Positions 10,362 through 63,843 of a stretch of DNA of 64,000 bases are shown here, one piece after another. The position numbers and the translations under genes are program-made. Below the pieces are notes generated by a model, which did no database searches, was not told the DNA's origin, and saw nothing but the letters and a program-made list of their open reading frames with translations. The number at the start of each line of letters is the position of its first letter. Positions within the stretch are counted from its first letter, which is position 1. This stretch comes from Opitutus sp. GAS368 (GTDB lineage Bacteria; Verrucomicrobiota; Verrucomicrobiia; Opitutales; Opitutaceae): positions 1-64,000 of the forward strand of contig CAMDOF010000017.1 in the NCBI GenBank assembly GCA_945903465.1, written 5' to 3'.

Positions 10362-13349
10362 TTGAGCCCCTCCCATCGCCCACACTTTACCGCCGTGGTG
10401 ACTGGCTGGATGGCCTTGCTGACCTTCGCCACGCCGCACTCGGCGCAAACCATCGACCGTCCCCCTTCCGAAGGCCTCCGGCCAAACACCGGGACCGCCA
10501 CCGAAGCGAAGCCGGTGAAGATGTCAGTGTTCGAAGTCACGGGGGACAAAGATGTGGGTTATCAAGGCGGCAATAGCACCGCCGGCAGCCGCTTTAACAC
10601 CAGTCTCCAGGACACCGCCGCCGCCATCATGGTGGTGACGCCCGAGTTCATTTCCGATTTCGGCGGCAATTCCCTCGAGAGCCTCACGGCCTATGGAGCG
10701 AATCTTGAGGTCGACTTTTTGGAGAACCGGTCGAGCCCGAACCCGGGCTTCCTAGGCGGCAGCGATTACTCGAACCCCCGGATCCGCGTGCGCGGGCTTT
10801 CGGCCAGTCCGGCGATGGACTTCTTCGACACGACGGTGATCATCGACAATTACAACATCGAGCGTTTTGAAATCTCGAGCGGCCCCAATTCCATCCTCTT
10901 CGGCCTGGGTTCGCCCGGGGGCCTGCTGAATGCATCGACCAAGAAAGCGGACTTTCTGCGCCGCCGTACCGCGCTGCGCACGCAGTTTGGCGACTGGGAT
11001 TTCAGCCGCTACGAGTTGGATCACAACCAGGTGATCGTGCCCGGCCGGCTCGCGGTACGGTTGAACGCGCTGCACCAAAATTCTGGCGGCTGGCGCAAAT
11101 GGGATTTCAGCGACAGCAAACGCGCCGCGGTGTCGCTGCGGTACAGTCCGACGCAAAACACCGATTTCGTGGTCAACTACGAAAACGGCGACGTGAAATC
11201 GCACGTCAGCCGCCCCCTCAACGCGGACGACGCCCTGCTCCTGTGGCAGGCGAGCGGCGCGCGCACCATGAATGAAAGCGCGTGGACGACGGCGGACCGG
11301 GCGCTCGGGATCAACCGCAACACGACGGTGCGCAATCTCTACGTCACCGACGCGAACGGCTCGACCCCGTTCGTGCTCGCCACGAGTAATGTCGCCAATT
11401 TCCGGCTGCTCGACAGCGCCTTCGACAATCTCAATCTGCCGGCCGCCCAGCGCGCCGGGCGGACGCTCGTCCCCGCCGCGAAACTGCCCTTCGAATACAG
11501 CGCCTACGGACCCGGCGCCGGTCGCGACCTCCATTTCGACCGATACTACGTGACCGGTACCCAACGCTTCACCGAGAATGCGATGCTCGAAGTTTCTTAC
11601 AACAAGGAGAAGCCGATCATGGGGGTCATGGCGCCGCAAAATCAGCAACTGACGCTGGGCGGTGATCCGAATGCGACGATTCCGAATCCCAACGGGAACG
11701 GAACGTTGGTCGCCAATCCGAATGCCGGCCGGCTTTATCTCAATGCGTTGTGGGGAACCGACCGGGGCCTGCAGACCAACGAAGCATACCGGGCCGCCTT
11801 GTCATGGAAGATCGGACTGGGGAAGTTCGGCACCCATCATCTCGCCGCCATGGTGGAGCATGGCACGCAGCGGAAGTTTCGTTATGTGGGAAGAGAAATC
11901 CTCATCGACGACGACGGCGTGCCGATCAGCAACGCCGCGGTGCCGGAGAACGCCAACAACTTCGTGACGCGGCGGCACTACGTCGCGGCCGGAGACTTCA
12001 ACACCTACATCGGTGGCGACGCCACGCAACCGGTCACGGTCACGCGCAACGGGAAGCGCTATCACAGCGAATGGATCAACCAAAGTACCAACGGCCGCGA
12101 CATCAACCGCGCCACCGACACCGCGCTGGCGGTAACCCAAAGCCATTTTTTCGACTCCAAATTGGTCGTTACGGCAGGGCTGCGCTCGGATCAGGTCACG
12201 TATGATCAGCACGGCAGCGGGCGGGTCTCGCCGTCGGATCCCGCCGTGCTCGCCCACCGCGTGGTCGCGAACACCCTCACCTTCACGCCGGAGATAACCG
12301 ACTCATTTGTATATGAGCCGATCTCGTGGACGACGGGGGCGGTGTATCATGCCACGCGCTGGTTCTCGGCCTTCTATAATCACGCCAACAACACCGATCA
12401 ACCAAGCTACAACCAGAGCATCCTGCCCGATGAGATTCTGCCGCCGCCGGCCGAGGGCAAGACGCACGATTACGGATTCATGCTCCGGCTGCTCGATGGA
12501 AAATTTTTCCTGCGCGCGACGGCCTTCAAAACGTCCCAGATTCAAACCACGGGGGGCATTGGTCTCGCGGCGGCGGTCACCCAGCCGAGCACCCGCATCC
12601 TCGACACGTTGCTCGAAAACAACCATATCTCCGCGGCGGACTACCGGCAGCATCTCGTCGGCGACCAGGGAACGCTGATCGCCACCGAAGATCTGGTGAA
12701 CCAGGGTTACGAGGTGTCGGCATCGCTCAACCTGAGCCGGAATTTCACCGCGCTGCTGAACTTCTCCCACACCAAAACCGATCACGCCTCCATCGGGCGG
12801 GAATTCGAGAAATGGTATGAGCGGGAACTGGCCTACTGGAATCGCACCCCGGGGGCGGGTCGCTTGGTCAACGGGACGCTGGGCACATCGATCGATCAGG
12901 ATGCGGCGGAAATGCCGCGACTGATCCGGGAGTTGAGGGAATTCAACAGCTTCGGCTGGGGCGAACGGCCCGACAAGGCGAACGCCAGCGGGCGCACCAC
13001 TTTTTCCGAGGGCCGGCTGAAGGGAGTTTTTGCGGGCGGTGGTGTGCGGTGGCGAAGCACGTCTAAACTTGGCCGCCGGGTCGTCGGTATCGCGGCGAAT
13101 GGGAGCACCCTCTATGGCGAGACGTTCATCGGGCCGGAGGATTTCAAGGTGGACGCCTTCCTCGGCTACCGCCGGCAAATTGCCATCGCCCGAACCAAGC
13201 CGCAGCTTACGGTGCAGGTAAACGTCGCCAATCTCACCAACGAAGACTCGTTCATGCCCCTGCGCTACAACGCGGACTATTCCGGTTACTCAAACGTCTT
13301 GCTGCTTGATCCCCGCAGCATACGGCTGACCGTGGCCTTGGTTTTCTGA
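10362..13349 (+). CDS. TonB-dependent outer-membrane receptor
   Basis: This is a 995-residue active importer of the outer membrane, energised by TonB-ExbBD. A signal peptide (hydrophobic stretch about residues 10-25, ending near HSAQ) is followed by a short segment SVFEVTGDKDVGYQGGN and the plug domain (AGSRFNTSLQDTAAAIMVV). The plug ends with IERFEISSGPNSILFGLGSPGG, the typical 'VE..rGP.s.LyG.g..gG' block. The rest is a 22-strand barrel ending in an aromatic residue (LTVALVF). It lacks the N-terminal carboxypeptidase-like domain found in two later receptors. It is followed after 55 bases by a ceramidase-like gene. The upstream dyad suggests control by the regulator at 38 kb. Confidence 0.93.
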   Translation: MSPSHRPHFTAVVTGWMALLTFATPHSAQTIDRPPSEGLRPNTGTATEAKPVKMSVFEVTGDKDVGYQGGNSTAGSRFNTSLQDTAAAIMVVTPEFISDFGGNSLESLTAYGANLEVDFLENRSSPNPGFLGGSDYSNPRIRVRGLSASPAMDFFDTTVIIDNYNIERFEISSGPNSILFGLGSPGGLLNASTKKADFLRRRTALRTQFGDWDFSRYELDHNQVIVPGRLAVRLNALHQNSGGWRKWDFSDSKRAAVSLRYSPTQNTDFVVNYENGDVKSHVSRPLNADDALLLWQASGARTMNESAWTTADRALGINRNTTVRNLYVTDANGSTPFVLATSNVANFRLLDSAFDNLNLPAAQRAGRTLVPAAKLPFEYSAYGPGAGRDLHFDRYYVTGTQRFTENAMLEVSYNKEKPIMGVMAPQNQQLTLGGDPNATIPNPNGNGTLVANPNAGRLYLNALWGTDRGLQTNEAYRAALSWKIGLGKFGTHHLAAMVEHGTQRKFRYVGREILIDDDGVPISNAAVPENANNFVTRRHYVAAGDFNTYIGGDATQPVTVTRNGKRYHSEWINQSTNGRDINRATDTALAVTQSHFFDSKLVVTAGLRSDQVTYDQHGSGRVSPSDPAVLAHRVVANTLTFTPEITDSFVYEPISWTTGAVYHATRWFSAFYNHANNTDQPSYNQSILPDEILPPPAEGKTHDYGFMLRLLDGKFFLRATAFKTSQIQTTGGIGLAAAVTQPSTRILDTLLENNHISAADYRQHLVGDQGTLIATEDLVNQGYEVSASLNLSRNFTALLNFSHTKTDHASIGREFEKWYERELAYWNRTPGAGRLVNGTLGTSIDQDAAEMPRLIRELREFNSFGWGERPDKANASGRTTFSEGRLKGVFAGGGVRWRSTSKLGRRVVGIAANGSTLYGETFIGPEDFKVDAFLGYRRQIAIARTKPQLTVQVNVANLTNEDSFMPLRYNADYSGYSNVLLLDPRSIRLTVALVF

Positions 13350-13404: not shown

Positions 13405-14913
13405 ATGAACCGCCACCCCCTTGTCCGTCTGTTGCTGCTGGTCGGATTATTTTCCGGACGCGTCTTCGCGGCAATTGAGGCCGGGTTTGCCGAACGCGAC
13501 ATCACGCCGGAAATTGGTCAGGAGCGTCCCGGCGGCTACGGCAAGGTGTTTCACCACAAGTTTCTCGATCCGTGCAAGGTTCGCGTCGCGGTCTTTGCCG
13601 ACGGCGCCCGCACGGTCGTACTGGTGGGGATCGACGCATTAACGATCTCGCGACGCGTCGTCCAGGAGGCGCGCGCAGAAATCACGCGACTCACGCAGAT
13701 CCCCGGGGACGCCGTGATGATTGCCGCCTCTCATTCCCACTCGTCCGGTCCGGTCGGCATGGTGCAACCCGGGGAATACGACGCCGCGCCGGAACTCGTC
13801 CGCAAGCTCGCGTATGAGCAGTCCTCGCTCGCGGACGCGGCCTATCTCGCGAAGGTGGTCCGGCAAATCGCCGATGGCGTCAAGGCCGCGGCCGACGCGC
13901 GCGTGCCGGCGAAAATCGGCTTCGGGGTCGGGCACGAGGACAAGGTGGGTTTCAATCGGCGCGTGCGCATGAAGAACGGGCAAACGTGGACGAATGCCGG
14001 CGTCGGAAATCCGGACGTCGTGGACTATGCCGGTCCGATCGATCCCGCCGTCGGCGTGATCGGCGCATGGAACATGCAGGGACGCCTGCTCGGCACGGTC
14101 GTGAACTACGCGCTCCACACGAATATCTCCCCCGACGGGATCTCCGCCAATTGGACGTATCATCTCGAGCAGACCATCCAGGGCGCGCTGAACGCCAAGG
14201 TGCCGGTCGTTTTCCTAGCAGGCGCCTGCGGCGATATTTCCAAGATCGACACGCTCACCCCTTTCGAACGTCCCACCGAGGAGCAATGGATGCAGATCGT
14301 CGGAGGGCGCGTCGGGGCGGAGGCGGTCAAGGTGCTGTTGACGATGCCGCGCGGGACCGACGTCGCCTTGAACAGCCGCGCGAAAGTCTGGCCGATCCGG
14401 CGTCGCCTCCCCTCGCCGGCCACGTTGCAACGCGCGCGCGCACTGGTCGCGGCCGGCAAGCCCGCGGGGAATCCCGCGCTGACCGAGTGGACGTTTGCGA
14501 AGGAGACGCTGATGGTCGAATACTTGGGGAACGTCTCCCCCGAGGTGGAGGTCGAGGTCCAGGTCATCCAGATTGGACCGGCGGTTTATGTCAGCAACCC
14601 GGCCGAATACTTCGTCGAATACGGCCTTGATATAAAGAAGCGCAGTCCGTTTCCGTTCACATTTCCCGTCGAGCTGGCGAATGGCGGTGTTGGCTACGTC
14701 CCGACCGAGGAGGCATTCGGGCCGGGAGGCGGCGGCTACGAAACGCGTCTGACCTCCTATAGTAACCTAGAGATCACCGCCGGACGCCAGATGGCCGATG
14801 CCGGCGTCGCGCTGGTGAAGGAACTGAAACCCGGCCCGGTTCCCGGCCGACCCCGTGTGAAACAGCCCGGCCTACCGTGGCTCTTCGGCAATGTCCCGGC
14901 CCAGGTGGATTGA
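13405..14913 (+). CDS. Exported neutral/alkaline ceramidase-like hydrolase (copy 1)
   Basis: The 502-residue protein has a signal peptide (LLLLVGLFSGRVFA) and the N-terminal domain of neutral/alkaline non-lysosomal ceramidases, zinc enzymes that cut amide bonds. Family landmarks are present: SHSHSSGP with His 110/112, the second zinc-type His in VNYALHTN (about 238), the GDIS block whose Ser (about 279) sits where the neutral ceramidase nucleophile lies, NPAEYFVEYG, and ANGGVGYVPTEEAFGPGGGGYE near the C-terminus for the Glu/Tyr ligands. The C-terminal immunoglobulin-like domain of true ceramidases is absent, so the substrate may be another amide or ester. It pairs with the upstream TBDR and is a close paralogue of the gene at 18319. 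Confidence 0.82.
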   Translation: MNRHPLVRLLLLVGLFSGRVFAAIEAGFAERDITPEIGQERPGGYGKVFHHKFLDPCKVRVAVFADGARTVVLVGIDALTISRRVVQEARAEITRLTQIPGDAVMIAASHSHSSGPVGMVQPGEYDAAPELVRKLAYEQSSLADAAYLAKVVRQIADGVKAAADARVPAKIGFGVGHEDKVGFNRRVRMKNGQTWTNAGVGNPDVVDYAGPIDPAVGVIGAWNMQGRLLGTVVNYALHTNISPDGISANWTYHLEQTIQGALNAKVPVVFLAGACGDISKIDTLTPFERPTEEQWMQIVGGRVGAEAVKVLLTMPRGTDVALNSRAKVWPIRRRLPSPATLQRARALVAAGKPAGNPALTEWTFAKETLMVEYLGNVSPEVEVEVQVIQIGPAVYVSNPAEYFVEYGLDIKKRSPFPFTFPVELANGGVGYVPTEEAFGPGGGGYETRLTSYSNLEITAGRQMADAGVALVKELKPGPVPGRPRVKQPGLPWLFGNVPAQVD

Positions 14914-14930
14914 CGCGCCCGGTTCACCCC

Positions 14931-17900
14931 ATGGTATCCAACGTCCCATCCAATTCATCACTGGCGAACCTCGGAGCAGCGCCGTCGACGCAGGGCGGAT
15001 CGGCGCCGGCGGCCGTGAAGTTCGCTCGACTTCGGCATGCGATAGGTTGGACACCAGGGACGCCCCGCCTTGGCCGGCACCCGGCCGGGGCGTCCCGCCC
15101 GCCTGGCAGCGCTTCACCTTTTCATTCACTTTTTCATTCTCATTTTCACATAGCCACACACCGACGCTCCCTTCTGGCGATTTCACTCGTGGCTTTGGCC
15201 AACGTGCCGACTGTTCCGGCGCTCGCGGCCGATGCGTCGGTCGCAACACCTGCCGCCCAGAGCGGGACCGTGAGCGGCCGAGTCAAGAACGCCGCCACGG
15301 GCCAGTATCTCAACAATGCCCGGGTGACGGTGCCGGGGAGCGACGTGGTGGCATTTTCCGATGCCACCGGCGAGTTCCAGCTGGCAAACCTGCCGGCGGG
15401 ATCCGTGGCGCTGGATATCTTCTTCACCGATCTGGATGCGCAACGCATCAACGTGAATGTAATCGCGGGGCAGACGGTGACCCAGGACGTGGCATTGACC
15501 AGTGTATCCCGCTACGGGGCCGATCCCAACGTCGTCCGTGCCAAACCGTACATTGTCGCGGCGGACAAGGAAACCAATGCGGCGGCCATCGCGGCCAACG
15601 AGCAGCGGTTTGCACCCAATCTGAAGAACGTGGTGGCAACCGATTCGCTCGGCGACGTTCTGGGCAGCAATGTGGGTGAGTTCCTGAAACTGCTGCCCGG
15701 CGTAACCGGAGAATACAGCGGCACGGAGATCATCGGAATTTCCATCCGGGGACTTGGGAGCGGCATGACGTCGTTCACGTCCAACGGCGCGCCGGTCGTC
15801 GGCGCCTTTTTCGTCGGCGGCGTGGCGGGAGGTGGACGGGATTTCAACATCAACACGATGGCGATGAACGATATTTCGCGCGTCGAGGTGACCAAGGTGC
15901 CGACGCCGGCCAATGCCGCGGACTCGCTGGCGGGATCGGTCAACCTGATCAGCAAGAGCGCGTTCGAGCGCAGCCGCGCCGAATTTCGCTACGGCCTCAC
16001 ACTGACGTCGAGCGACGAAAACCTCACCCTGCGCAAGACTCCGCATTCAAACGGCGATCATCTCACGCGGAAGACGCTGCCCAGTTACAATTTCGACTAT
16101 GCCCTGCCGGTCAACCAGCGCTTCGGTCTCATGGTCGCAGGGGCGCAGAGCAACAAATTCAACGAACAGCATCACTCGACGATGACGTTTTCCGGGGCCG
16201 GAACCGCCACCGGAGCCTCCTTCGCGCGACCCTATCTCCAGTCGTATGCCCTGATCGATTCACCGCGGTCCCAGATGCGCTCAAACCTCAGTCTCAAAGC
16301 CGACTGGCGGGTGACGCCCAAATCCGTGTTGTCCCTGTCGAGTCAGTGGAACCGTTACCGGAACTGGATTGGCGCACTCACGTGGACATTCAGTCCCGGG
16401 ACCATCGGAACGCCCACCCCCGCCACGGGAGTTCCGTTCAGTTCCGGAGACAACTTTGTCGTCGGTGCCACCGGACGCGGGTCGGTCACGACGAGCGGCG
16501 GCGGGCAGACGACCGGCGGCGAAGGGCTGGCGACGAGCCTGCAGTATCGCTACGACGATGGCACGTGGAAGATCGAAGGCGGGCTCAGTGATTCCGCCTC
16601 CGAAATTTTCCGGCGCAACCTCGCCGGCGGCCATTTCGGCCTGGTGACGGGCAATCTGATCGATCCGGTGCGCGTCTCCCTCACCGGCTTCGACGCGGTC
16701 AGGCCCGCTGAAATCCGGACCTTTGGGGCGACCAACCGGGAGGTCGATGTCTACGAACTCGCGAACTACCGCATCACGACGGCCAACGACACGCCGGTGG
16801 AAAATCGCGCCAGCGTGCGGTCAGGCAATCTCAACCTCCGGCGGAGCCTGCGGTGGTTCCCGTTTCCGGCGGCGCTGCAGATCGGCGGGGCCCACCGTAT
16901 CCAGACTCTGGACGCACGGCGGGGCAACATCAACTGGACCTTCAACGGTCCGGATGGCAACCCGGCCACGGTGGAAAATGCCGCGCCCTACCAGATGCGG
17001 GTGTATGTCAACGAGGACTCGCACTACGGCTTCCGGAACGTCCCGTGGATTTCCCCCACGGGAACCTGGACCGCGTTTCAGGCCAACCCGGTGCTGTTCT
17101 CCCAGACACCGGCACAGGTGGTGGCCGCCGAAACCTTTCGGATCACCAACTCGGAACGGATCGAAGAAAGCGTCTCGGCCTACTATCTTCAGGCCGAGGC
17201 CCGGCTGCTGCACAACCGCCTGCGGATCCTGACCGGGGTCCGACGGGAGCAGACCGTGGACGAGGGCGAGGGGATGCTGTTCGATCCGAATGCGGTTTTT
17301 GTGCGCAACGCGAACGGGAGCTTTGCCCGCACGGCGCAGGGCGCGCGCATCCGCCGCAGCGAGGCCGGAGCGGTTGGCTCGCTCGAGGAAATGCGACTGG
17401 TCCGAAAGGAACGCGCCTACCGGGCGAACCGATCCTACGACGGACTTTATCCCAGCCTGCACCTGACCTACGACATAAGGGAGAACTTCCTGGCGAGGGC
17501 CGCGTATGCGCGGACGTATGGCCGGCCCGATTTCACCGACATCATCCCCAGCGCCACGATCAACGAACTCGATCTGGGTGCCGAGACATCCGCCGATCCC
17601 ACCGTCGCGAAGGGCACCATCACGGTCCGCAACACCGGGTTGCGGCCCTGGACGGCGGACAATTTAGATCTGTCGCTGGAATACTACTCGGAGAAAGGCG
17701 GAATGATCAGCGGGGGCGTATTCCTAAAGGAAATCCGGGACTTCTTTGGCGACGACGTCCGGCTCGCGACGCTGGCGGATCTCGAACAGGTTGGCCTCGA
17801 CGCCCAATATGTCGGCTGGAATCTCGCGACGAAATTCAATTCCGGCGACGCGCGGATCCAAGGGGCGGAAATCAACCTCCGGCATTCGCTCCGCCATCTG

Positions 17901-18317
17901 GGCGGCTGGGGCCGATACCTTACGGTCTTTGCCAACGCCACACAGCTTAAACTGCAGGGCGATCAACAGGCGTCTTTCAGCAGTTTTATTCCCCGTTCCG
18001 CCAACTGGGGGTTTTCGTTCGGCCGGGAGCGGGTCACATGGGTGGCCAAATGGAACCATCGGGGCCAGGACAAGCGCGTGGCCCAGCCCCTCTTCGGTCC
18101 GGATGGATTCGAGTATTTCAAGGCGCGGACAACGCTCGACCTGAATCTGACGGTGCAGTTGAGCCGCCGGTTCTCGCTGGTGGCGAATGCCAACAACGTG
18201 TTCAACGTGCCGCAAACCGTCTTGCGCTATGGATCACAAACCCCCGCCTATGCCCGGCAGTGGCGCCGATCGGAATACGGCGTGGCGCTCGCGTTGGGCG
18301 TCCGCGGCAACCTTTGA
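14931..18317 (+). CDS. TonB-dependent receptor with N-terminal carboxypeptidase-regulatory-like domain
   Basis: This is an outer-membrane receptor of about 1055-1128 residues depending on start. After a signal peptide (LLAISLVALANVPTVPALAA) comes an Ig-like carboxypeptidase-regulatory domain (GTVSGRVKNAATGQYLNNAR). A plug with FLKLLPGVTGEYSGTEI and ISRVEVTKVPTPANAADSLA follows, then a long barrel ending GVRGNL. The start is uncertain. The paralogue at 25578 begins ATG at the codon aligned with ATA at 15150. The only in-frame ATG upstream here is at 14931 (or 14877, inside the previous gene), and it would add a peptide that reads through a strong hairpin at 15057-15096. The stop at 18317 is one base before the next ATG. 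Confidence 0.88.
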   Translation: MVSNVPSNSSLANLGAAPSTQGGSAPAAVKFARLRHAIGWTPGTPRLGRHPAGASRPPGSASPFHSLFHSHFHIATHRRSLLAISLVALANVPTVPALAADASVATPAAQSGTVSGRVKNAATGQYLNNARVTVPGSDVVAFSDATGEFQLANLPAGSVALDIFFTDLDAQRINVNVIAGQTVTQDVALTSVSRYGADPNVVRAKPYIVAADKETNAAAIAANEQRFAPNLKNVVATDSLGDVLGSNVGEFLKLLPGVTGEYSGTEIIGISIRGLGSGMTSFTSNGAPVVGAFFVGGVAGGGRDFNINTMAMNDISRVEVTKVPTPANAADSLAGSVNLISKSAFERSRAEFRYGLTLTSSDENLTLRKTPHSNGDHLTRKTLPSYNFDYALPVNQRFGLMVAGAQSNKFNEQHHSTMTFSGAGTATGASFARPYLQSYALIDSPRSQMRSNLSLKADWRVTPKSVLSLSSQWNRYRNWIGALTWTFSPGTIGTPTPATGVPFSSGDNFVVGATGRGSVTTSGGGQTTGGEGLATSLQYRYDDGTWKIEGGLSDSASEIFRRNLAGGHFGLVTGNLIDPVRVSLTGFDAVRPAEIRTFGATNREVDVYELANYRITTANDTPVENRASVRSGNLNLRRSLRWFPFPAALQIGGAHRIQTLDARRGNINWTFNGPDGNPATVENAAPYQMRVYVNEDSHYGFRNVPWISPTGTWTAFQANPVLFSQTPAQVVAAETFRITNSERIEESVSAYYLQAEARLLHNRLRILTGVRREQTVDEGEGMLFDPNAVFVRNANGSFARTAQGARIRRSEAGAVGSLEEMRLVRKERAYRANRSYDGLYPSLHLTYDIRENFLARAAYARTYGRPDFTDIIPSATINELDLGAETSADPTVAKGTITVRNTGLRPWTADNLDLSLEYYSEKGGMISGGVFLKEIRDFFGDDVRLATLADLEQVGLDAQYVGWNLATKFNSGDARIQGAEINLRHSLRHLGGWGRYLTVFANATQLKLQGDQQASFSSFIPRSANWGFSFGRERVTWVAKWNHRGQDKRVAQPLFGPDGFEYFKARTTLDLNLTVQLSRRFSLVANANNVFNVPQTVLRYGSQTPAYARQWRRSEYGVALALGVRGNL
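15057..15096. repeat. Strong GC-rich stem-loop in the TBDR leader
   Basis: GGGACGCCCC (15057-15066) pairs with GGGGCGTCCC (15087-15096), and an inner GGCCGG/CCGGCC pair (15072-15086) surrounds a CAC loop. It lies between the end of the ceramidase-like gene and the conserved part of the receptor, so it probably belongs to an untranslated leader or intercistronic element. It lacks a T-run. Possible roles are mRNA processing, attenuation or a REP-like element. Confidence 0.6.
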
Positions 18318-51787: not shown

Positions 51788-51825
51788 ACGAATAAAAATG
51801 CCCCGGGGCATTGGAGCCAACGCCA

Positions 51826-52179: not shown

Positions 52180-52244
52180 GTCGCCGCCATTTACTCTTTT
52201 CCGCTCCTCTATTTCCGCTCCCCAATCCCCAGCCCCGACAACCC

Positions 52245-54881: not shown

Positions 54882-54888
54882 AAACCAC

Positions 54889-55953
54889 ATGCCTTCGACT
54901 CATACAACCCGCCACCTCGTGGGTTTTCTCGCATTGGCTTCAATCACGCCCGCGGCTCAGGTCGCAGACCTCCGTCTCGGTATGATCGGTCTGGATACAG
55001 GCCACGTGATCGAGTGCCCCAATATCCTCCACGTTCCCGCCGCGAAGGGCCACGTGGCTGGGGCGAAGGTCTTGGCGGCCTACCAGGCGGCCAGCCCCGA
55101 CATCGAAAGCTCATGGACGAAGGTCGGTGGTTACGCCGAAAAGCTGCCGCAGGAGTATGGTGGGAAGCTCGACACCTCCAGCGAGGAACTGGTCAAAAAC
55201 GTGGATGGCGGGCTGATCGAAAGCGTCGACGCGCGTCCGCATCTGGCGCGGGCCAGCGCAGTGATTCGGGCGGGAAAACCGCTCGTCATCGAGAAACCGC
55301 TCGGGGGATCGCTCAAGGAGGCCTTGGAAATATTCGCGCTCACAAAGCAACCTCACGTTCCGGTGTTCAGCTCCTCCGCGCTGCGGTTCGGGGCCGATAC
55401 GCTCGCGGTTCGTGCCGGCAGCATCGGTCGCGTCCTGCGGGCGGAGACGAACAGACAGGCGCCGGTGGAGCCGCACCCCATCGATCTCTTCAGGGATGGC
55501 ATCCACGGTGGGGAGTCTCTCTTCACCGTGATGGGCCCCGGCATCGAAAGCGTGGCGCGCCCGACCGATCCTTCCGGATTGATCGTGGCGGTGGGCCCAT
55601 GGTCGGGCGGACGAACGGGCCCGTTTCGTGAAGTGCCCCGGGGCTCGCTGGACCGGACCTATGGTGGCCGCGCCGCGGGCGAAAAGGGCGAGGCCGCGGT
55701 GGGTAAATTCGACGGCGACGCGCCGCTCGTCGCCGCCATCGTGAAATTTTCCCAAACCGGCACGTCTCCGATCCCGCCCCGCGAAACCCTCGAGATCCTG
55801 GCGTTCAGGGAAGCGGCTGCGTTGAGCAAAGAGCGCGGTGGAAAGCCGGTGGCGATCGGAGAAATCCTCGCGCGGGCGGGCTGGAACGGCGCCTGGCCCG
55901 GCGCGTTTGGACGGCCCATGGTTTCCGCCGATTCAGATATTTCACGCGCGTGA
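54889..55953 (+). CDS. Gfo/Idh/MocA-like oxidoreductase with probable signal peptide
   Basis: The product has 354 residues. It starts with a hydrophobic segment that looks like a cleavable signal (HLVGFLALASITPAAQVA), then RLGMIGLDTGHVIECPNIL, ESVDARPHLARA and VIEKPLGGS. The EKP signature is intact, but the dinucleotide-binding loop is Gly-Leu-Asp-Thr-Gly-His rather than Gly-x-Gly-x-x-Gly, as in a branch common in verrucomicrobia. If exported, it would need a tightly bound cofactor, as glucose-fructose oxidoreductase has. It starts seven bases after the TBDR stop and is likely cotranscribed. Confidence 0.8.
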   Translation: MPSTHTTRHLVGFLALASITPAAQVADLRLGMIGLDTGHVIECPNILHVPAAKGHVAGAKVLAAYQAASPDIESSWTKVGGYAEKLPQEYGGKLDTSSEELVKNVDGGLIESVDARPHLARASAVIRAGKPLVIEKPLGGSLKEALEIFALTKQPHVPVFSSSALRFGADTLAVRAGSIGRVLRAETNRQAPVEPHPIDLFRDGIHGGESLFTVMGPGIESVARPTDPSGLIVAVGPWSGGRTGPFREVPRGSLDRTYGGRAAGEKGEAAVGKFDGDAPLVAAIVKFSQTGTSPIPPRETLEILAFREAAALSKERGGKPVAIGEILARAGWNGAWPGAFGRPMVSADSDISRA

Positions 55954-56288: not shown

Positions 56289-57059
56289 ATGTCACTCAAA
56301 GATAAAGTCATCATCGTCACCGGCGGCACCTCGGGCATCGGGGAGGGCTGCAGCCGCCACTTTGCCGAAATCGGCGCGCGCGTGGTCGTCGCGTCCAACC
56401 AGGAGGAAGCCGGTCAAAAGCTGGAGCAGGAGCTGCGTGCCGCCGGCAAGGACGTGCGCTTCGTATTCACCGACGTCGCGAACGAGGCGAGCGTGCACGC
56501 GCTCGTGCAGCGCGTTGTGGAACTTCACGGGCGAATCGACGGCGTCCATTGCAACGCGGGAGTTTGGGCTGCCGGCAAAGTGACCGAGTTCGACGACGCC
56601 GTTTGGAACAAGGTCATGAATGTGAATGTGAAGAGCGTGTTCTGGACCGCGAAGCATGTCGTGCCGGTGATGGCGCGCCAGAACGGCGGTGTGATCGTGA
56701 TCACGACTTCGGTCGCGGCCTTCGTGGGCTTCCCCTCCCACGCGCTCTATTGCGCCTCCAAGGCGGCGTTGGAGGCACTCATCCGGTGTCTCGCGGTCGA
56801 CCACGCGGGCCAGGTGCGCGTCGTCGGAGTCTGTCCTGGAACCATTGATACACCGATGCTGGCCGCGACGTGTGCTGGTTGGAACAAACCGGTAAACGAA
56901 CTCTATGCCGACGTGGCCCGTCGCATCCCGGTGCGCCGGCTCGGGCAGCCGCTCGACGTCGCCCAGGCCGCCGCGTTTTTGCTGAGCGACGACGCCGGTT
57001 ATATCAACGGCACCTCGCTCGTCCTCGATGGCGGCACGATGGCGCTGCCGCCGTGGTAG
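56289..57059 (+). CDS. SDR family oxidoreductase
   Basis: This 256-residue classical short-chain dehydrogenase has the cofactor motif TGGTSGIGEG, the NAG strand (VHCNAGVWAAG), catalytic Ser in TTSVAAFVG and Tyr-x-x-x-Lys in YCASKAAL. It also has the C-terminal YINGTSLVLDGG block seen in sugar and polyol dehydrogenases. It is cytoplasmic. Such enzymes oxidise or reduce sugar hydroxyl/keto groups with NAD(P). It stands after an intergenic repeat and before a perfect 16-bp inverted repeat, so may be monocistronic. Its neighbours suggest a step in degrading the imported sugar. Confidence 0.93.
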   Translation: MSLKDKVIIVTGGTSGIGEGCSRHFAEIGARVVVASNQEEAGQKLEQELRAAGKDVRFVFTDVANEASVHALVQRVVELHGRIDGVHCNAGVWAAGKVTEFDDAVWNKVMNVNVKSVFWTAKHVVPVMARQNGGVIVITTSVAAFVGFPSHALYCASKAALEALIRCLAVDHAGQVRVVGVCPGTIDTPMLAATCAGWNKPVNELYADVARRIPVRRLGQPLDVAQAAAFLLSDDAGYINGTSLVLDGGTMALPPW

Positions 57060-57232: not shown

Positions 57233-58378
57233 ATGCCCGACTCTCCACCGACCTCCCCGCCGATCCGGCAATTCGATCCCGACAAATTCGAAAACATCCA
57301 CCAACTCGGCGGCATCCGCACGGGCACGCTCGACGCTCCCGGCGCGGGTGGCGCCAGCGGAGTGCGCGTCGCGTTGGTCGACACCGGCGCCGGCCTGCGT
57401 TTCACCGTGGCGCTGGATCGCGGTGGCGACATCGTGGACGCGAGTTTCAACGAGTTCGGCCTTGCCTACCTTTCGCCCAACGGCTTGCGCCCGCCCAACG
57501 CGGCGTATCACGTGGACAACGAGTGGTTGCGCAATTGGGCAGGCGGCCTCGTCACGACCTGCGGCCCGGAGTATATGGGCGGCTCGCGCGTCGAGTCCGG
57601 CGTGAAGACACCGTTGCACGGTCGTTTTTCCAACACGCCCGCCGTCGTCGAGCGTTTGATTAACCCTGATCCGCGCCGCGGCGTCCTCGACATGGAACTT
57701 GGCCTCGTCATCCGCGATACGCGGATGTTCGGACCAAATTTCGAAATCCGCCGGACGCTGCGTTGCCGACTCGGCGAGGCCGAGGTCACGATCGACGACG
57801 AAGTGATTAATTGTGGCGATACGCCCGCGGCGCATCACTGGCTCTATCACTGCAACCTCGGGTATCCGCTGCTCGATGAGGGGTCGCGTTTCATCTACCG
57901 CGGCCCGGCAGAATACTGGATCGCGCCGCCGCCACCCGGACAGGACATCGTGCAGCCGTTGTCAGCTGCCGCGATGAACGAGCTCAAACGCGTGCCCGTC
58001 GCCATGGCTGAACACGCCGGGAGCGGCGAGCGCGGGCTCATCGTAACCGCCGAACCGGAATCCGACGGCGTGTGCCGCGTCGGCATCCTCAACGAACGCC
58101 GCCGCCTCGGACTGGAGTTCATCTACCCGGCGGCGGCGCTGCCGCGTCTCGCCCATTGGCAGCACTACGGACCGCGGGGTTGTTACGCGAGCGCGCTCGA
58201 GCCGTTTTATGGATCGTTGCTCGGAAGCGCCCGCGACCGGCATCCGCTGGCGAGCGCAGCCCTCGCCCCGCGCGAGTCCCGTCATTATCAGCTTCGAATC
58301 CGCGTGCTCCGGAACCGCGCCGAACTAGACGAATTGAAGGCGCGCGATGGGCCCCTTGCACCCGTGGCACGCTGCTAA
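57233..58378 (+). CDS. DUF4432 family protein (aldose-1-epimerase-like fold)
   Basis: The product has 381 residues and no export signal. It shows the beta-rich pattern of the galactose-mutarotase-like superfamily: LRFTVALDRGGDIVDASFNE, GGLVTTCGPEYMGG, LHGRFSNTPA with His, YHCNLGYPLLDEG and a late LEFIYPAAALPRLAHWQHYG. DUF4432 proteins are found in sugar-catabolic clusters and are thought to act on sugar isomers; their chemistry is not settled. The gene ends inside the first copy of a 36-bp direct repeat, and the last residues (PLAPVARC) may therefore be affected by the repeat insertion. Confidence 0.82.
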   Translation: MPDSPPTSPPIRQFDPDKFENIHQLGGIRTGTLDAPGAGGASGVRVALVDTGAGLRFTVALDRGGDIVDASFNEFGLAYLSPNGLRPPNAAYHVDNEWLRNWAGGLVTTCGPEYMGGSRVESGVKTPLHGRFSNTPAVVERLINPDPRRGVLDMELGLVIRDTRMFGPNFEIRRTLRCRLGEAEVTIDDEVINCGDTPAAHHWLYHCNLGYPLLDEGSRFIYRGPAEYWIAPPPPGQDIVQPLSAAAMNELKRVPVAMAEHAGSGERGLIVTAEPESDGVCRVGILNERRRLGLEFIYPAAALPRLAHWQHYGPRGCYASALEPFYGSLLGSARDRHPLASAALAPRESRHYQLRIRVLRNRAELDELKARDGPLAPVARC

Positions 58379-58958: not shown

Positions 58959-59231
58959 CTATGGGGCGACGAAAGGCTGTTTGTCATCGTCGGCTTGTGC
59001 CGGCATGAACAGGTCGAGTAGCGTGACTTGAAGGTCGCCCATAAAACCGTGGCTTCGGAGATACCGGGAAGCTGAATAGGCCACCCAACCCCCCAGCACT
59101 GTGAGCGCGACATGCTCTCGCGCCTTCCGCGCGGCTTGCTCCTTTCCCCATTTTTGAAAAAGCGCCGCAGCGTGCGCGCTCTCCCGCGCGATCAAGGGCA
59201 ATTGTGTTTCAGGAATTGCGGCGGACTCCAC
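58959..59231 (-). CDS. Small hypothetical protein downstream of the sulfatase
   Basis: This is a 90-residue frame starting with GTG at 59231, overlapping the sulfatase stop codon by one base (TAGTG), which would couple its translation. The sequence is helix-prone in the middle (RESAHAAALFQKWGKEQAAR) followed by a moderately hydrophobic stretch (HVALTVLGGWVAYSASRYL) and an acidic tail. I do not recognise the family. The tight junction with the upstream gene argues it is real; the lack of any recognised domain and the GC-rich context mean it could be chance. Confidence 0.45.
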   Translation of the reverse strand: MESAAIPETQLPLIARESAHAAALFQKWGKEQAARKAREHVALTVLGGWVAYSASRYLRSHGFMGDLQVTLLDLFMPAQADDDKQPFVAP

Positions 59232-60664
59232 TAGCGGGGAGTTCCGCCTGTGGCCTTGAGTTGGCGCGCCAGCTCGTCTTTCAGCTTCTGCAATTCCGCG
59301 GCCGCGCCCGGACTGCGGATCAGGTTGCGCATCTCGTAGGGATCGCGGTTGAGATCATACAGCTCATCGCTGTCGGGCAAATCGACGTAGTGAATGTATT
59401 TCCAAGCTTCGGTGCGCACCGCCTGGTAGCCCATGCGCGTGGTGCGCGGAAACACGTTTTCGGAAAAGTGCTCGATGAGAAACGCCGGGCGTAGCTCGTG
59501 GTTTGCATCTGCCAGCACCGGCATGAACGACTTGCCGTGCAGCCCCGCCGGGATGGGCGCGCCCGCCAGCTCGAGCAGCGTCGGCGCGAGGTCGAGCGTG
59601 AGCACCATGGGATTGCGCTTGGTCGCCGCTTTGATCTTCGGCGGGTAGCGGAGCAGCAGCGGAATGCGGATGCCTTCTTCGTAGGCGAGGCGACGTTCGA
59701 TGCTCAGACCATGTTCGCCATACCAATACCCATGATCGCTCGTGAAGACGATGACCGTGCGATCGAGCTGCCCGCTCGCTGCGAGCGTTTTGAAAATTTC
59801 GCCGATGCTTTCATCCACGGCGGCGATCATGCGCAGGCGGTTGAGAATGGCTTCATCGCTCGAACCCGTCGCGGGGCCGAGCGGTGGCAGCCCGGGGATT
59901 TCGCGTTGCAACGCGGGCTGGCCCTCGGGTGCGCGCAGCGCGTTCGGGCGGCGGGGGATTTTGGCGCCGGTGTAGAGCGACTTGTGTCGGTCCGCGGGAA
60001 TGAAATTCGAGAGCGTGGGATCGGACAGAGAGCCGTCGGCGCGTTGGACGGACTCGGGGTGCACAGCCTTGGTGGAATAGTAGAGCAGGAAAGGTTTCGC
60101 ATGAGGCTGTCGCAGGAAGGCAATCGCGTGTTCGTTGAGCACATCGGAGACGTAGCCTTTCGCCTGCACTTCCTTTCCATCGACGTTCAATTCCGGATCG
60201 TGGCTCGAGCCCTGGCCCTTGAGCGAAATCCACCGGTCAAAGCCGGGCCGCTTCGTCGCGTCGTTGCCCATGTGCCATTTGCCGACGAATGCCGTCTCGT
60301 AGCCCGCGCGCTGGAGGTGCTGGGGAAACGTCATGAGCTTGTGGCTCGCCGGGCTCCGGTCGGTGTTGTCGACGATGCCGTGACTGTGCGTGTGCAGCCC
60401 GGTGAGGATGCTGGCGCGACTTGGCGAGCAAATCACGGTCGTCGCAAAAGCATTCCGAAACATCACGCCCTCCCGCGCGATCCGGTCGATGTTCGGCGTC
60501 TTGCTGAAAGGATGTCCGGTGCAGCCCAGATCGTCCCAACGAACATCGTCCATCAGGATGAAGACAATGTTCGGATGGTCCGCCGCGGCGGCGAGCAGAG
60601 CGCTCGGGCCGATGAACGCGGCGGCGAGCAGCAGAGTAGTGAAGAATCGGTTGCGAATGGACAT
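59231..60664 (-). CDS. Exported sulfatase (family S1)
   Basis: The 477-residue product has a signal peptide (FTTLLLAAAFIGPSALLAAA). The metal pair is Asp-Asp in ILMDDVRWDD, the formylglycine site is Cys 79 in CSPSRASILTGLHTHSHG, and GKWHMGND, FTSDHGYWYGEHG and a C-terminal DELYDLNRDPYEMRNL block are all present. It is the third gene of the leftward cluster, 12 bases after the SGNH-DUF1080 gene, and is probably cotranscribed with it and the ceramidase-like gene. Confidence 0.93.
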   Translation of the reverse strand: MSIRNRFFTTLLLAAAFIGPSALLAAAADHPNIVFILMDDVRWDDLGCTGHPFSKTPNIDRIAREGVMFRNAFATTVICSPSRASILTGLHTHSHGIVDNTDRSPASHKLMTFPQHLQRAGYETAFVGKWHMGNDATKRPGFDRWISLKGQGSSHDPELNVDGKEVQAKGYVSDVLNEHAIAFLRQPHAKPFLLYYSTKAVHPESVQRADGSLSDPTLSNFIPADRHKSLYTGAKIPRRPNALRAPEGQPALQREIPGLPPLGPATGSSDEAILNRLRMIAAVDESIGEIFKTLAASGQLDRTVIVFTSDHGYWYGEHGLSIERRLAYEEGIRIPLLLRYPPKIKAATKRNPMVLTLDLAPTLLELAGAPIPAGLHGKSFMPVLADANHELRPAFLIEHFSENVFPRTTRMGYQAVRTEAWKYIHYVDLPDSDELYDLNRDPYEMRNLIRSPGAAAELQKLKDELARQLKATGGTPR

Positions 60665-60676
60665 GAGCGGGACTGG

Positions 60677-62419
60677 TCAGGGAAGCTGCTTGAGGCGAAT
60701 ATTACGAAAGCGGACGACCGCGCCCGGTTTCCACGTCGTTAGCCCGGCGACATCGGGATGCACCTGCAGGGCGATGCCGCCTTGCGTAGGAATGCCCTCG
60801 GTGGTCTTCGTCGTGTGCTGAAAATCGGTGAGGAGGCGGCCGTTCATCCACACGCGGATGCGCGCGGGTTCGCCTTCCATGCGCACGGTGAGGTCGTTCC
60901 ACGCGTCGGGCCGCACGAGCCGCGCGCCTTCCGCGTTACGCTGCACATAGGCGTGGCCGATGAAGGGAATGAAAATCGCGCCGACGTCGGAGCCGGGCCG
61001 GTAGTCGAGGCACACCTGATGACTGCGGCCATCCGGGCCCACGCGCAGAAAAATCCCGCTGTCCATCGGATAAGTGAGCCACACGTCGAGTTTGAGAATG
61101 AAGTTCGCATACGGCCCCTCGACCCAGAGCAGCCCGCCTTTGCCCGGCGGGTCCTGCGTGCCGCGCAGCTCGCCCTCCTCGGCCCACCATTTTCCAAAGA
61201 GGTGGAGGGGCGGCATGCCTTCGTGTTTCGACCAGGCACCGAGCGTCTTGCCGTCGAACAGCGACCTGAAACCGACCTGCCGCTCCGCCTCGGCGCTCGT
61301 GGCACCCAGCGCCTCACGCACGGTGGGCGTGATACCTTCGGCCATGCGCATGAAACCCAGATCGGTCGGATGCGTGCCGTCGACGGTGTCCTCGCCATCG
61401 CCGCCGAGAAGAAACGCCGCTGAAACATAACGGAGGTTTTTATCTCCAGCCTTCACCAGGCGATCGTAGAGCTGGCGCAGCAGCGAGTTCGCTTCGGCGA
61501 CTTTGCTTCGGCGGCTTTCGATGAAGCCGGCGTCGGCGTAGGAAACATTTTCCACAAGGATGATGGGCGTGGTCGGACGTGCGGCGCGCAGCGTTTTCAG
61601 AAACGGCTCCACGCGTTCCTTCACCTGCGCGACGTCGAGATTCGGCAGACTGTCGAGGACGAAGGCGGCGGGATCCAACTCGGCGAGCAGCGCCGCCACC
61701 TCGGGCTCGGTCTTCCCGTTGCCGCTGAAGCCGAGGTTGATCGTCGGCCGGTCGAGCATGCGGCCGACAATCGCGGGATAGGCCATGCCGGGTCGCGACG
61801 CGCAGCCGCCCTGCAGGATGGACGTCCCGTAGAAGACGATGGGCTTGCGACTCGCGTCGTACTCCGGTGCGCGTTCGAAGACGGCGCCGGCGGGGACGGC
61901 GAGGTCCACGCTCTCCACGCCGTTGTAGAGCGGCAGATAGAGCGCGAACTCGCGTTTCCTCCCCGCGGCCAGGCCCTTCACGAGGACCGCTTCGTTCGTA
62001 TCCGGTTTAACCGGACGCCCGGCGCCGACCCAGCGCCACTCGCCTTCGTCCCGCACGTAGAGGTCGAGTCCGCTGACGCCGGTCGCCGGCATGTGCGGCA
62101 TCGCGAGGCGGTCCGGCTTGCGTACCTTCCATCGGGCTTTGATTTCGGTCGCGTCGGTGACGAAGCGCATCCGCATTCCGGCCGAGTCGAGCGCAAGATT
62201 CCACACGGGCGCGCGCACGATCTTCTCGGCTTTCGCCGGCAGGCGGTCGTAGCGCGATTTCGTGGTCTCCCAACCTTTACCCTCCAGCGGCCATTGGTTG
62301 AGCTCGTGCCAGGTGGTGGCCGCGGCGGCTGCGCTCTCCGCTGCGTTCAGCGCGTGACCGCCGCAGGCGAGGAGGAGAACGGCGAAAATCCAAACGGGAC
62401 GAAAACGATCGGCGATCAT
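60677..62419 (-). CDS. SGNH esterase fused to DUF1080 (3-keto-disaccharide hydrolase-type) domain
   Basis: The product has 580 residues from the ATG at 62419; a GTG at 62437 that overlaps the upstream stop (GTGA) is an alternative. A signal peptide (IFAVLLLACGGHALNAAES) is followed by a jelly-roll-like region, then an SGNH hydrolase with FYGTSILQGG (Ser ~200), LGFSGNG, LDSLPN and DGTHPTD (Asp/His ~347-350). The C-terminal ~195 residues are a DUF1080 concanavalin-like domain (FRSLFDGKTLGAW, WWAEEGELRG, SGIFLRVGPDG, AWNDLTVRMEG). DUF1080 members cleave 3-keto-glycosides. The fusion suggests de-esterification and keto-glycoside cleavage by one periplasmic protein. Confidence 0.85.
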   Translation of the reverse strand: MIADRFRPVWIFAVLLLACGGHALNAAESAAAAATTWHELNQWPLEGKGWETTKSRYDRLPAKAEKIVRAPVWNLALDSAGMRMRFVTDATEIKARWKVRKPDRLAMPHMPATGVSGLDLYVRDEGEWRWVGAGRPVKPDTNEAVLVKGLAAGRKREFALYLPLYNGVESVDLAVPAGAVFERAPEYDASRKPIVFYGTSILQGGCASRPGMAYPAIVGRMLDRPTINLGFSGNGKTEPEVAALLAELDPAAFVLDSLPNLDVAQVKERVEPFLKTLRAARPTTPIILVENVSYADAGFIESRRSKVAEANSLLRQLYDRLVKAGDKNLRYVSAAFLLGGDGEDTVDGTHPTDLGFMRMAEGITPTVREALGATSAEAERQVGFRSLFDGKTLGAWSKHEGMPPLHLFGKWWAEEGELRGTQDPPGKGGLLWVEGPYANFILKLDVWLTYPMDSGIFLRVGPDGRSHQVCLDYRPGSDVGAIFIPFIGHAYVQRNAEGARLVRPDAWNDLTVRMEGEPARIRVWMNGRLLTDFQHTTKTTEGIPTQGGIALQVHPDVAGLTTWKPGAVVRFRNIRLKQLP

Positions 62420-62433
62420 AGGTTGAGATGCTT

Positions 62434-63843
62434 TCACCGCAGCGTCGACACTATCGCCCGATGGGCGATCAGTTGCCGGATGGCCGAGTCGACGAGCGCC
62501 TCGCCCGAGCCGGGCTCACAACGAGTGCTTTGGACCGAGGCGCCATACGCGCCTTCGGCCTGCGCTTTGCGGTTCGGAATGTAACCGATCGCGCCGTTCG
62601 CCAGCTCGTCGATGAAGGTGTATTGATAAGGCGATCCCTGTTTGATCGTGTTGCCGAGCTCGACGAAGAGCTCGCCGGGAATGCCCACGAACGCCACTTC
62701 GTCGCCGAGCGAGATCACCATGACCTCGGCCTCGAACTGATACTGGCCGTTGACGAGTCGTTCGGTGACTTCGCCATCGAAGAACGAGGGACGGGCACCA
62801 TCGTCGGCGATGAACTTGTCGGATTTTACCCTCAGCATCTTCAACGTCACGACTTCGCGCGAAACCTTCAACGGAGCGGTCGCGAGCGGGCGCAGCCGCT
62901 CATACGTGCGCACCACTTCGGCGGCCAGCAACGTCCCGATGCGCGCCGCTTCTTCGTAGCCTTTGACGCGGCGCGGCCGCTTCGGGTCGAGAAGATAGTA
63001 GTGGTTGATGTTGCCGCAGGCGCCCGTGGTGAAATGCGTCAGCATCCCCGGACCTTTCACGTCGGCGAGAATACGCGCGATGACGTGCGGATAATCGGCC
63101 GAATAACGCATTCCGCCGGTCGTATCCAAGTGCATCGAGAAATTGATCATGCTGGCGAGCGGCTCGCCTTTCGGCGTGTCGAAGTAAACGAGCGGCAGCG
63201 CGGGGTCGGTGGGGCCGGCGGCGCGGACGACGTTGACCAGGAGCTCATCCTGACCCTTGGCGGGATTGGAAATTACCACGCCTTCCTTCATCAGAAATCG
63301 CCGGTTGAAGGCCACGCCATGCACTTCGCCCTGCGCCGCTTGCAATCTCGCCTCGGTCAACTTCGCGTCGGCTTGCTTCACGCTGTCCGCAATCAAGCGC
63401 GGCAGCCGTTCCAAATAATCCAGCGCGAGCTTCATCTGCTCCGGTTTGGCATTTTTGAAAAAGCGCGGCCGGATGTTCGGCACGGTGTGCGTGTGCGTCG
63501 CGGAAATCATCACGTTCTCCGGCGGCACACTGCAGATCGTGCCGACGTGCTGGCGCGCCGCGGTGATGATCTCGAGGGGAATGCTCGTGAGATCGCACGC
63601 CACGATGGCGGCTTTGATGCCGCCGCTTTCTAAGACGACGGCCTTCGCATACAACGGATCATGCGTGCCCTCGGCCGCGACCACCGGGTAAGGCGGCACC
63701 TGCGGCACTTGAAACGGCATCCCGGGCGGAGGCGTGATGTCAACGTGTGCGGCGCCGATGCGCAGCGGGGAATCGGCCCCGAGAGCAGACGCGGCCAGAA
63801 AAGAAATAATCGCAGAAACGCGGAGGGTGCGGACGAGAATCAT
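62434..63843 (-). CDS. Exported neutral/alkaline ceramidase-like hydrolase (copy 4, lacks the usual Ser)
   Basis: The product has 469 residues with a signal peptide (VSAIISFLAASALGA). It is a distant relative of the other three. Landmarks are SATHTHTVPN with His 117/119, INFSMHLDTTGG, VGIPGELFVELG and ANGAIGYIPNRKAQAEGAYG. At the nucleophile block it reads GACGNIN, so neither Ser nor Thr is present at the aligned position (Asn 280). Zinc ligands appear kept, so another type of hydrolysis or a binding role is possible. It follows a TBDR (63884 leftward), repeating the TBDR/ceramidase-like pairing of the + strand island. Confidence 0.78.
   Translation of the reverse strand: MILVRTLRVSAIISFLAASALGADSPLRIGAAHVDITPPPGMPFQVPQVPPYPVVAAEGTHDPLYAKAVVLESGGIKAAIVACDLTSIPLEIITAARQHVGTICSVPPENVMISATHTHTVPNIRPRFFKNAKPEQMKLALDYLERLPRLIADSVKQADAKLTEARLQAAQGEVHGVAFNRRFLMKEGVVISNPAKGQDELLVNVVRAAGPTDPALPLVYFDTPKGEPLASMINFSMHLDTTGGMRYSADYPHVIARILADVKGPGMLTHFTTGACGNINHYYLLDPKRPRRVKGYEEAARIGTLLAAEVVRTYERLRPLATAPLKVSREVVTLKMLRVKSDKFIADDGARPSFFDGEVTERLVNGQYQFEAEVMVISLGDEVAFVGIPGELFVELGNTIKQGSPYQYTFIDELANGAIGYIPNRKAQAEGAYGASVQSTRCEPGSGEALVDSAIRQLIAHRAIVSTLR

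Follow-up and report, generated by a model that had tools for sequence, protein, structure and literature searches.

How does a locus crowded with sulfatases, ceramidase-like hydrolases and heme dehydrogenases, in which no glycoside hydrolase is recognised, process its substrate? The question is raised by bases 1–64000 of a 78,982-base contig (C17) of Opitutus sp. GAS368, whose 8.16 Mb genome stands in 343 contigs at 93% completeness; this 64,000-base stretch is called the window below. A sequence-only reading had treated positions 10362–63843 as a single island of more than 50 kb, in which heme and FAD proteins might oxidise a sulfated glycoside or glycolipid that a DUF1080 protein then cleaves. 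We scanned the open reading frames (ORFs) of this region (n=30) with Pfam, NCBIfam profiles also being used, and compared the region with related genomes. Three parts were found instead of one island: a 19-gene core at ~18.3–58.4 kb, which is real and conserved and apparently co-regulated, a set of window-specific extras, and a minus-strand group termed unit C.

A conserved core and its regulator

A search with cer1, one of the ceramidase-like genes, over the genome contigs of 84,980 species returned 146 relatives; 80 of these were kept, and the closest come from records titled as metagenome-assembled genomes (MAGs) of Opitutae, Opitutus or Opitutaceae. Three of the 80 loci (L022, L023 and L025) run on with further window genes in order, and another (L024) carries TBDR2-cer-nagX before its record ends (TBDR, TonB-dependent receptor). 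The order of the core is cer-nagX-sulf1-fad-tim-TBDR3-sulf2-cer3-sulf3-heme1-sulf4-heme3-gfo1-epim-voc-TBDR5-gfo2-sdr-duf4432 (Table 1). All 19 genes stand in this order in G160/G201 C21 and G203 C274, which are Opitutae MAGs, and G200 C9 carries the regulator and 16 of the 19, the missing genes being nagX, sulf1 and fad. The check for the same gene set in other genomes, suggested by the sequence-only reading, thereby recovered the core order in three related Opitutae MAGs. Core genes of the window and these relatives are 61–90% identical (heme3, 90/76/74%), and outside the core and the regulator identity is 43% or less.

In the cores of the three relatives, the labelled genes are spaced so closely that only an additional Gfo/Idh gene (gfoX) and a leaderless TIM barrel gene (timX) fit between them; these two lie between heme3 and gfo1 in G160 and G203. 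The extras specific to the window are TBDR1-cer1-TBDR2 ahead of the core and regulator-TBDR4-SGNH-heme2, inserted between sulf4 and heme3 (38.0–45.3 kb). With tim as a marker at the class level (≤6 candidates scored per genome), one of 384 genomes, the window's own, gave a match, and the tim-carrying G160 was not among the matches, so that this figure is a poor guide to how widely tim is spread. Housekeeping genes, among them GcvT, GcvH and Lgt, occupy the first 9 kb of the window; these names were given by eye, and relatives were found. GcvT is 89% identical to that of G200 and 83% to that of G201, and none was found for G203; since these values are similar in size to the cluster identity, recent transfer is not clearly indicated. 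Although GcvT-Lgt flanks the cluster in the window, this region lies on C36 in G200 and the cluster on C9, and the viewed 20 kb of C36 contained no core gene apart from one TBDR paralogue. Two core gaps of the window (30157–30519 and 51454–51787) hold 75% identical copies of an element of ~360 nt, possibly a miniature element, and the copy at 30157–30519 has 29-nt inverted arms and internal direct repeats.

A relative of the window's regulator was found at the left edge of the core in all three relatives (59–65% identity), divergently oriented in G160/G201 C21 and G203 C274. The gap between regulator and target contains the palindrome CAACAAA-N5-TTTGTTG in G200 C9, G160 C21 and G203 C274, and likewise at a detached locus carrying nagX, sulf1 and fad, G200 C128; over 190 loci this pattern gave 8 matches, representing five places. 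In the window, the relaxed form CAACAA-N4-TTTGTT matches once, at 39148–39163 in the regulator gap (0.01 expected); the chance figures for the palindrome are a guide only, because the patterns were derived, and relaxed, after the gaps had been viewed. An 11-base half-site stands unaltered at 10258, before TBDR1, and with a single mismatch at 39282 and 35795. It occurs once each in L155, L025 and L188, always in the regulator gap, and had no match in L168, L169, L156 and L171. Unit C and the contig tail gave no match to the half-site or to the strict or relaxed palindrome. A broken regulator copy in two frames was seen at 9535–10154, ~100 bases from the operator half-site.

Gene content of the core

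The genes nagX, sulf1 and fad form a trio. Missing from G200 C9, they sit together on G200 C128 (fad 68%, sulf1 80% and nagX 62% identical), transcribed away from a paralogous regulator (59% identity to that of the window). We looked at eight fad genes, namely six matches from a family-level sample of 200 genomes (best ≤7 candidates per genome) and those of G200 and G203; seven have a NagX-type gene within two genes, the exception being G120 C64, and the neighbour in G000 C42 is a distant relative (30%, DUF5009). Matches to fad at E ≤1e-40 were found in at least 4 of the 200 genomes, the window's own included, and fad is nearest to L-amino acid and monoamine oxidases. A fad - esterase-like - nagX - fad - acetyl xylan esterase run was observed in another genome of the genus (G054 C121; L157 9559–16403).

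At E ≤0.01 the PDB matches of nagX were to HGSNAT only, with His297 aligned, and the equivalent catalytic His is invariant in all four nagX proteins. The window protein scores 134 bits, below the NCBIfam NagX equivalog cut-off of 480, and had no Pfam match up to E 1. In the available part of PMC9007349, fitness data from five bacteria lead to the proposal that NagX acetylates glucosamine in the periplasm; DUF5009 proteins intermix with HGSNAT and are described in excerpts of PMC12423673 as being without tested function in 2025. Sulf1 is an S1_8-type sequence with the formylglycine (FGly) motif, nearest to S1_8A (9bb9) and human SGSH (4mhx). S1_8 activities given in the accessible portion of PMC12549532 are directed at position 2, N-sulfoglucosamine, Xyl2S and Gal2S being among the substrates, and sulf1 perhaps removes a sulfate at C2, maybe an N-sulfate. 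The nearest PDB matches of sulf2–sulf4 were not discriminating.

The cer1 model has the neutral-ceramidase fold (2zws, E 3.4e-24; TM 0.67 by query and 0.54 by target length). The Zn-ligand positions H110, H238, E401 and Y431 are kept in 40 of 40 aligned rows, comprising three window proteins and 37 of the 80 kept cer1 loci, with cer4 outside the alignment; they correspond to the His/His/Glu/Tyr ligands of the reference ceramidase. The nucleophile position holds Thr in 34 rows and Ser in 6, cer1 and cer2 having Ser and cer3 Thr. Since cer1 has 502 residues, against 646 and 688 in neutral ceramidases, the C-terminal ceramidase domain is missing. By Pfam Ceramidase_alk, cer3 is above the cut-off (Table 1) and cer4 (25.9 bits) and cer1 (16.4 bits) are below it, and cer2 matched at E 0.04 but is nearly the same protein as cer1.

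Among the oxidoreductases, heme3 has a sub-threshold BetaGal_ABD2 match (beta-galactosidase all-beta domain, E 0.01) in its N-terminal stretch at 45498–46187. Gfo1 is present in the window and the three relatives, gfo2 is a weak match, and gfoX is found in two of the three relatives. The TIM barrel gene tim occurs in all four clusters and timX in G160 and G203, with no timX match in the window or in 55 kb of G200 C9; gfoX and timX are gene kinds of oxidation-elimination-hydration-reduction routes. With positions placed by eye, the residues at the E/HxH site are VEN[Y/F/I] in 4/4 tim and VENV in 2/2 timX proteins, and of the metal ligands E-D-H-K-E, timX keeps five and tim has Asp for His. The AlphaFold model of tim is poor (pLDDT 61.5), too poor for a fold search.

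The gene inventory of the sequence-only reading was largely borne out. All five sulfatases carry C-x-P-x-R, the three heme dehydrogenases are DUF7133/TIGR02604 proteins with one CxxCH each, and the four ceramidase-like proteins, two SGNH hydrolases (one fused to the single DUF1080 domain), two Gfo/Idh proteins (the second weak), and FAD, TIM, DUF4432 and SDR proteins are all present. Of six TBDRs claimed, five lie in the region, and the sixth starts at 63884 and leaves the window. As it had stated, no classical glycoside hydrolase (GH) or lyase is seen: the 30 ORFs gave no Pfam match to GH or polysaccharide lyase (PL) families, nor to a SusD partner. It had not listed nagX, the regulator and its broken copy, the NAD epimerase or the small VOC-like protein.

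These families are abundant in the genome, with Pfam matches to 42 DUF1080, 69 rows for DUF7133 (a protein may account for two), 37 for ceramidase-like proteins at E ≤0.1 and at least 150 sulfatases (150 scored of 277 candidates; two of the five window sulfatases are among the matches listed). By a rough Poisson estimate from row counts, the window holds 4 ceramidase-like proteins against 0.24 expected and 3 DUF7133 proteins against 0.45; on the same rough basis there are 5 sulfatases against 1.0–1.8, the genome count being a lower bound, and 1 DUF1080 against 0.28, which is no enrichment. Among three contigs picked by eye, sulfatase, DUF7133, ceramidase-like and DUF1080 genes co-occur within 29 kb on C8 and 26 kb on C19, and C2 has no DUF1080. 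The combination of families is not special by itself, since they are abundant and also meet on C8 and C19.

Table 1. Features of the window between 10362 and 63843. Signal and twin-arginine leaders, the cer2 start, the regulator N-terminus, the VOC name and the TIM-barrel ligand positions were called by eye.
Feature	Position	Strand	Remarks
TBDR1	10362..13349	+	Extra, ahead of core; Plug domain; exact operator half-site TTTGTTGCAAA at 10258
cer1, ceramidase-fold Zn hydrolase	13405..14913	+	Extra; fold match 2zws; Zn-ligand positions kept
TBDR2	14877..18317	+	Extra; whole ORF, true start internal; relative precedes cer-nagX in L024
cer2	18322..19869	+	Core gene 1; 88% identical to cer1
nagX, HGSNAT/NagX-like transmembrane N-acetyltransferase	20406..21623	+	Core, trio; NCBIfam NagX E 6.3e-39, below cut-off
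sulf1, sulfatase nearest S1_8A and human SGSH	21620..23110	+	Core, trio
fad, flavin amine-oxidase family	23124..24626	+	Core, trio; twin-arginine leader
tim, AP_endonuc_2 TIM barrel	24628..25524	+	Core; exported (leader)
TBDR3	25578..28700	+	Core
sulf2	28708..30156	+	Core; nearest steryl-sulfatase/GALNS/ARSA
cer3	30524..32038	+	Core; Pfam Ceramidase_alk 34.2 bits vs cut-off 32.1
sulf3	32035..33474	+	Core; best PDB match GlcNAc-6-sulfatase 5g2v, narrowly
heme1, DUF7133/TIGR02604 + HEAT + CxxCH	33471..36410	+	Core
sulf4	36407..37924	+	Core; nearest arylsulfatase 3ed4
Regulator	37998..39104	-	Inserted segment; LacI-type sensor (Peripla_BP_3), GntR-type N-terminus
Predicted operator CAACAA-N4-TTTGTT	39148..39163	.	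Between regulator and TBDR4; relaxed pattern
TBDR4	39338..42013	+	Inserted segment
SGNH hydrolase	41916..42974	+	Inserted segment
heme2	43005..45338	+	Inserted segment
heme3, N-terminal stretch + DUF7133 + HEAT + CxxCH	45414..49139	+	Core
gfo1, Gfo/Idh	49282..50280	+	Core; nearest NCBIfam UDP-GlcNAc 3-dehydrogenase, inositol 2-dehydrogenase, both below cut-off
NAD-dependent epimerase-like	50506..51453	+	Core
Small VOC-like protein	51811..52179	+	Core; no relevant Pfam match; 85-88% in relatives
TBDR5	52176..54881	+	Core
gfo2, Gfo/Idh-like	54814..55953	+	Core; weak match E 3.5e-4, below cut-off; signal peptide
SDR	56289..57059	+	Core
DUF4432 protein	57233..58378	+	Core, last gene
sulf5	59231..60664	-	Unit C
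SGNH + DUF1080 fusion	60677..62437	-	Unit C
cer4	62434..63843	-	Unit C

Unit C and the proposed function of the core

Unit C, made up of cer4, the SGNH-DUF1080 fusion and sulf5, runs on past the window with a TBDR at 63884–67015, an MFS transporter and an amidohydrolase. In G007 and G105 its relatives follow one another after a TBDR; in G122 sulf5 is on the opposite strand, and NagX-type (31%) and heme1-type (36%) paralogues are nearby. The core genes as a set were absent from the 20-kb stretches around these relatives in all three genomes, so the region is not one island and the DUF1080 protein lies outside the conserved core. Relatives of cer4 at E ≤1e-50 were found in at least 9 of the 200 family-level genomes, the window's own included (best ≤8 candidates per genome). 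No cer4 match was found in the mapped 55 kb of G200 C9 or 49.6 kb of G203 C274, and the best match of G160 (41%) is on a different contig. DUF1080 occurs in the window only in unit C, and one DUF1080 protein is found at the G200 trio locus. A repeat at 58379–58700, between core and unit C, recurs in L014 and L017 of the same genome at ≤94% identity. Beside a TBDR ~10 kb past the window, the protein of L021 9848–11482 (minus strand) looks by eye like a five-bladed-propeller glycosidase, and it had no Pfam match up to E 1 and no NCBIfam match.

With confidence a little short of even, we read the core (cer2 to DUF4432) as a single catabolic locus under common regulation that breaks down a compound with N- and O-sulfates; an oligosaccharide or glycoside containing an amino sugar is the likeliest candidate. 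The observations behind this reading are the conserved gene order, the shared position of regulator gene and palindrome in the relatives, a trio that remains joined even where it is detached, and an intact Zn site in the ceramidase-fold proteins. We infer the amino-sugar substrate mainly from gene company: the locus unites a candidate N-desulfating enzyme with an N-acetyltransferase, amidases and an amine oxidase. TonB receptors would bring the compound into the periplasm, where sulfatases would take off O-sulfates and sulf1 the C2 sulfate, perhaps an N-sulfate. The freed amine could be acetylated by NagX using cytosolic acetyl-CoA, or a free amine acted on by the flavin oxidase, and other N-acyl groups may be removed by the ceramidase-fold amidases. 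The sugar would be oxidised by the heme dehydrogenases, and the oxidised product isomerised or reduced by the Gfo/Idh, TIM-barrel, epimerase, SDR and DUF4432 proteins.

Several observations weigh against this reading. Only four genomes are known to carry the core, and since the core of G200 has no trio, the other core genes may function without these three. Proteins of the NagX type are common, G200 alone giving 6 matches; S1_8 also includes O-sulfatases (Gal-2- and Xyl-2-); and, by eye, the His that follows the GK motif in SGSH is missing from sulf1, 9bb9 having none there either. The strict palindrome has no match in the window and the longer operator pattern is at chance level there; the half-site match at 35795 falls inside heme1, with 0.71 expected and 6 of 100 shuffles reaching three; and the fifth palindrome place, possibly a chance one, is an unrelated Daejeonella record (L049) with different spacing. 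No cytoplasmic-membrane sugar transporter or depolymerase was recognised in the core, and a search for PqqC was uninformative, as both it and its control returned no match. Known 3-keto-glycoside eliminases have a catalytic His in an E/HxH arrangement, two positions past the metal ligand on beta-5; this His is absent in tim and timX, which weakens OGE/CGE-type elimination by these proteins and is why such membership is not claimed. Lastly, hydrolases of matching regulation, which the sequence-only reading had named as contrary evidence, appear in part in one relative, G200. On C128, the other side of the trio's regulator carries a TBDR and then, at L188 16283–19502, a DUF1080 protein and a GH123_N-match protein, the GH123_N match (E 1.4e-9) being above cut-off and covering part of the profile only, with no NCBIfam match; on C9, the core's regulator is followed by an esterase (BD-FAE) and by a second protein whose weak BNR and glycosylhydrolase matches are both below cut-off (L168 1286–3711, minus strand). 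Since these proteins adjoin the trio and the core regulator, the G200 regulon may include hydrolases outside the core.

Those same G200 neighbours favour an auxiliary role, in which the core would cut no glycosidic bond and would desulfate and tailor small sulfated oligo- or monosaccharides released by GHs or lyases encoded elsewhere. The lack of GH or lyase matches in the window's core and the relatives' gaps, which fit only gfoX and timX, point the same way; the heme, FAD and Gfo/Idh set, however, is bigger than plain trimming requires, and we hold this role to be possible, if somewhat unlikely. A hydrolase-free route for N-sulfated amino-sugar glycans would combine N-desulfation, re-acetylation of the amine across the membrane or its oxidation by the exported flavin oxidase, heme-dependent formation of a keto-sugar in the periplasm and cutting of the glycosidic bond by the exported TIM barrel with its altered metal site. 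Such a route strikes us as unlikely. The scheme of the sequence-only reading would have unit C and core act jointly: a sulfated glycoside would be oxidised at C3 by heme or FAD proteins, and the resulting 3-keto compound then cut by the SGNH-DUF1080 protein. The two units are adjacent in the window, DUF1080 proteins are tied to 3-keto-glycosides in the available part of PMC9007349, a DUF1080 protein adjoins regulator and trio on G200 C128, and the paralogues near the G122 unit C genes fit as well. Set against this, DUF1080 is common in the genome, unit C is carried separately in the 20-kb stretches of three genomes and has no palindrome match, and the mapped parts of G200 C9 and G203 C274 gave no cer4 match. 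The sulfatase/ceramidase-like/heme locus without GH or lyase in its core stands, whereas DUF1080 does not fit as its pivot and is weakened as its cleaver, and we regard the joint scheme as quite improbable.

Catabolism of a sulfated sphingolipid or glycolipid by true ceramidase activity would agree with the ceramidase fold, the intact Zn site and the arylsulfatase A and steryl-sulfatase structures nearest to sulf2. The glycolipid idea rests on this resemblance, and it is weakened by the missing C-terminal domain and by Thr at the nucleophile position in most rows (cer1 and cer2 have Ser there); the core holds no recognised gene for fatty acids or sphingoids, and this explanation appears very unlikely. 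A chance pile-up of abundant families, suggested by their high counts and their meetings on C8 and C19, is scarcely credible and is rejected for the core by the gene order conserved in three relatives with a shared regulator and palindrome; for unit C, chance placement may hold.

Relation to known systems

The locus is an unusual combination of known families, and a literature search, with most subscription journals outside it, found no paper on this gene set. Nasseri et al. (2024) reportedly describe a gut 3-keto-glycan pathway built on the oxidise-then-cleave idea. One genome holds at least 150 sulfatase matches, 69 to DUF7133 and 37 ceramidase-like ones, all without assigned substrates, and the situation in related phyla is much the same; conservation of the cluster, together with its regulator and a recognisable N-sulfate/N-acetyl trio, limits the range of likely substrates and yields a few proteins suited to direct biochemistry. 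Were the hydrolase-free route true, it would give a function to DUF7133/TIGR02604 heme proteins and PVC ceramidase-like proteins.

Unlike a Bacteroidetes-type polysaccharide utilisation locus, the region gave no SusD, GH or PL match in its 30 ORFs. As far as the accessible parts of PMC7676230, PMC10628242 and PMC8563793 describe them, levoglucosan, AtOGE and C-glycoside deglycosidase operons resemble the core in joining Gfo/Idh oxidoreductases to sugar-isomerase-like TIM barrels within an operon; the core departs from them in the export leader of one TIM barrel, in the lack of the catalytic E/HxH, and in its additional sulfatases, N-acetyl chemistry and heme proteins. Glucosamine utilisation through NagX, in the available part of PMC9007349, shares a NagX-type protein with the conserved catalytic His, whereas the window's protein is below the NCBIfam cut-off, stands in a sulfatase context and has no NagA, NagK or NagP among the matches. 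In lysosomal heparan sulfate degradation SGSH acts before HGSNAT, and here an S1_8/SGSH-like sulfatase adjoins an HGSNAT-like acetyltransferase; the core differs in having no NAGLU-type or uronidase partner, its third member being a flavin amine oxidase. In freshwater Verrucomicrobia, sulfatase genes lie beside PVC-type cytochrome c genes and are said, in excerpts of PMC5615132, to mirror GH genes; in contrast to the PSCyt families described there, the proteins found here are of the DUF7133/TIGR02604 type and belong to one ordered cluster with a regulator.

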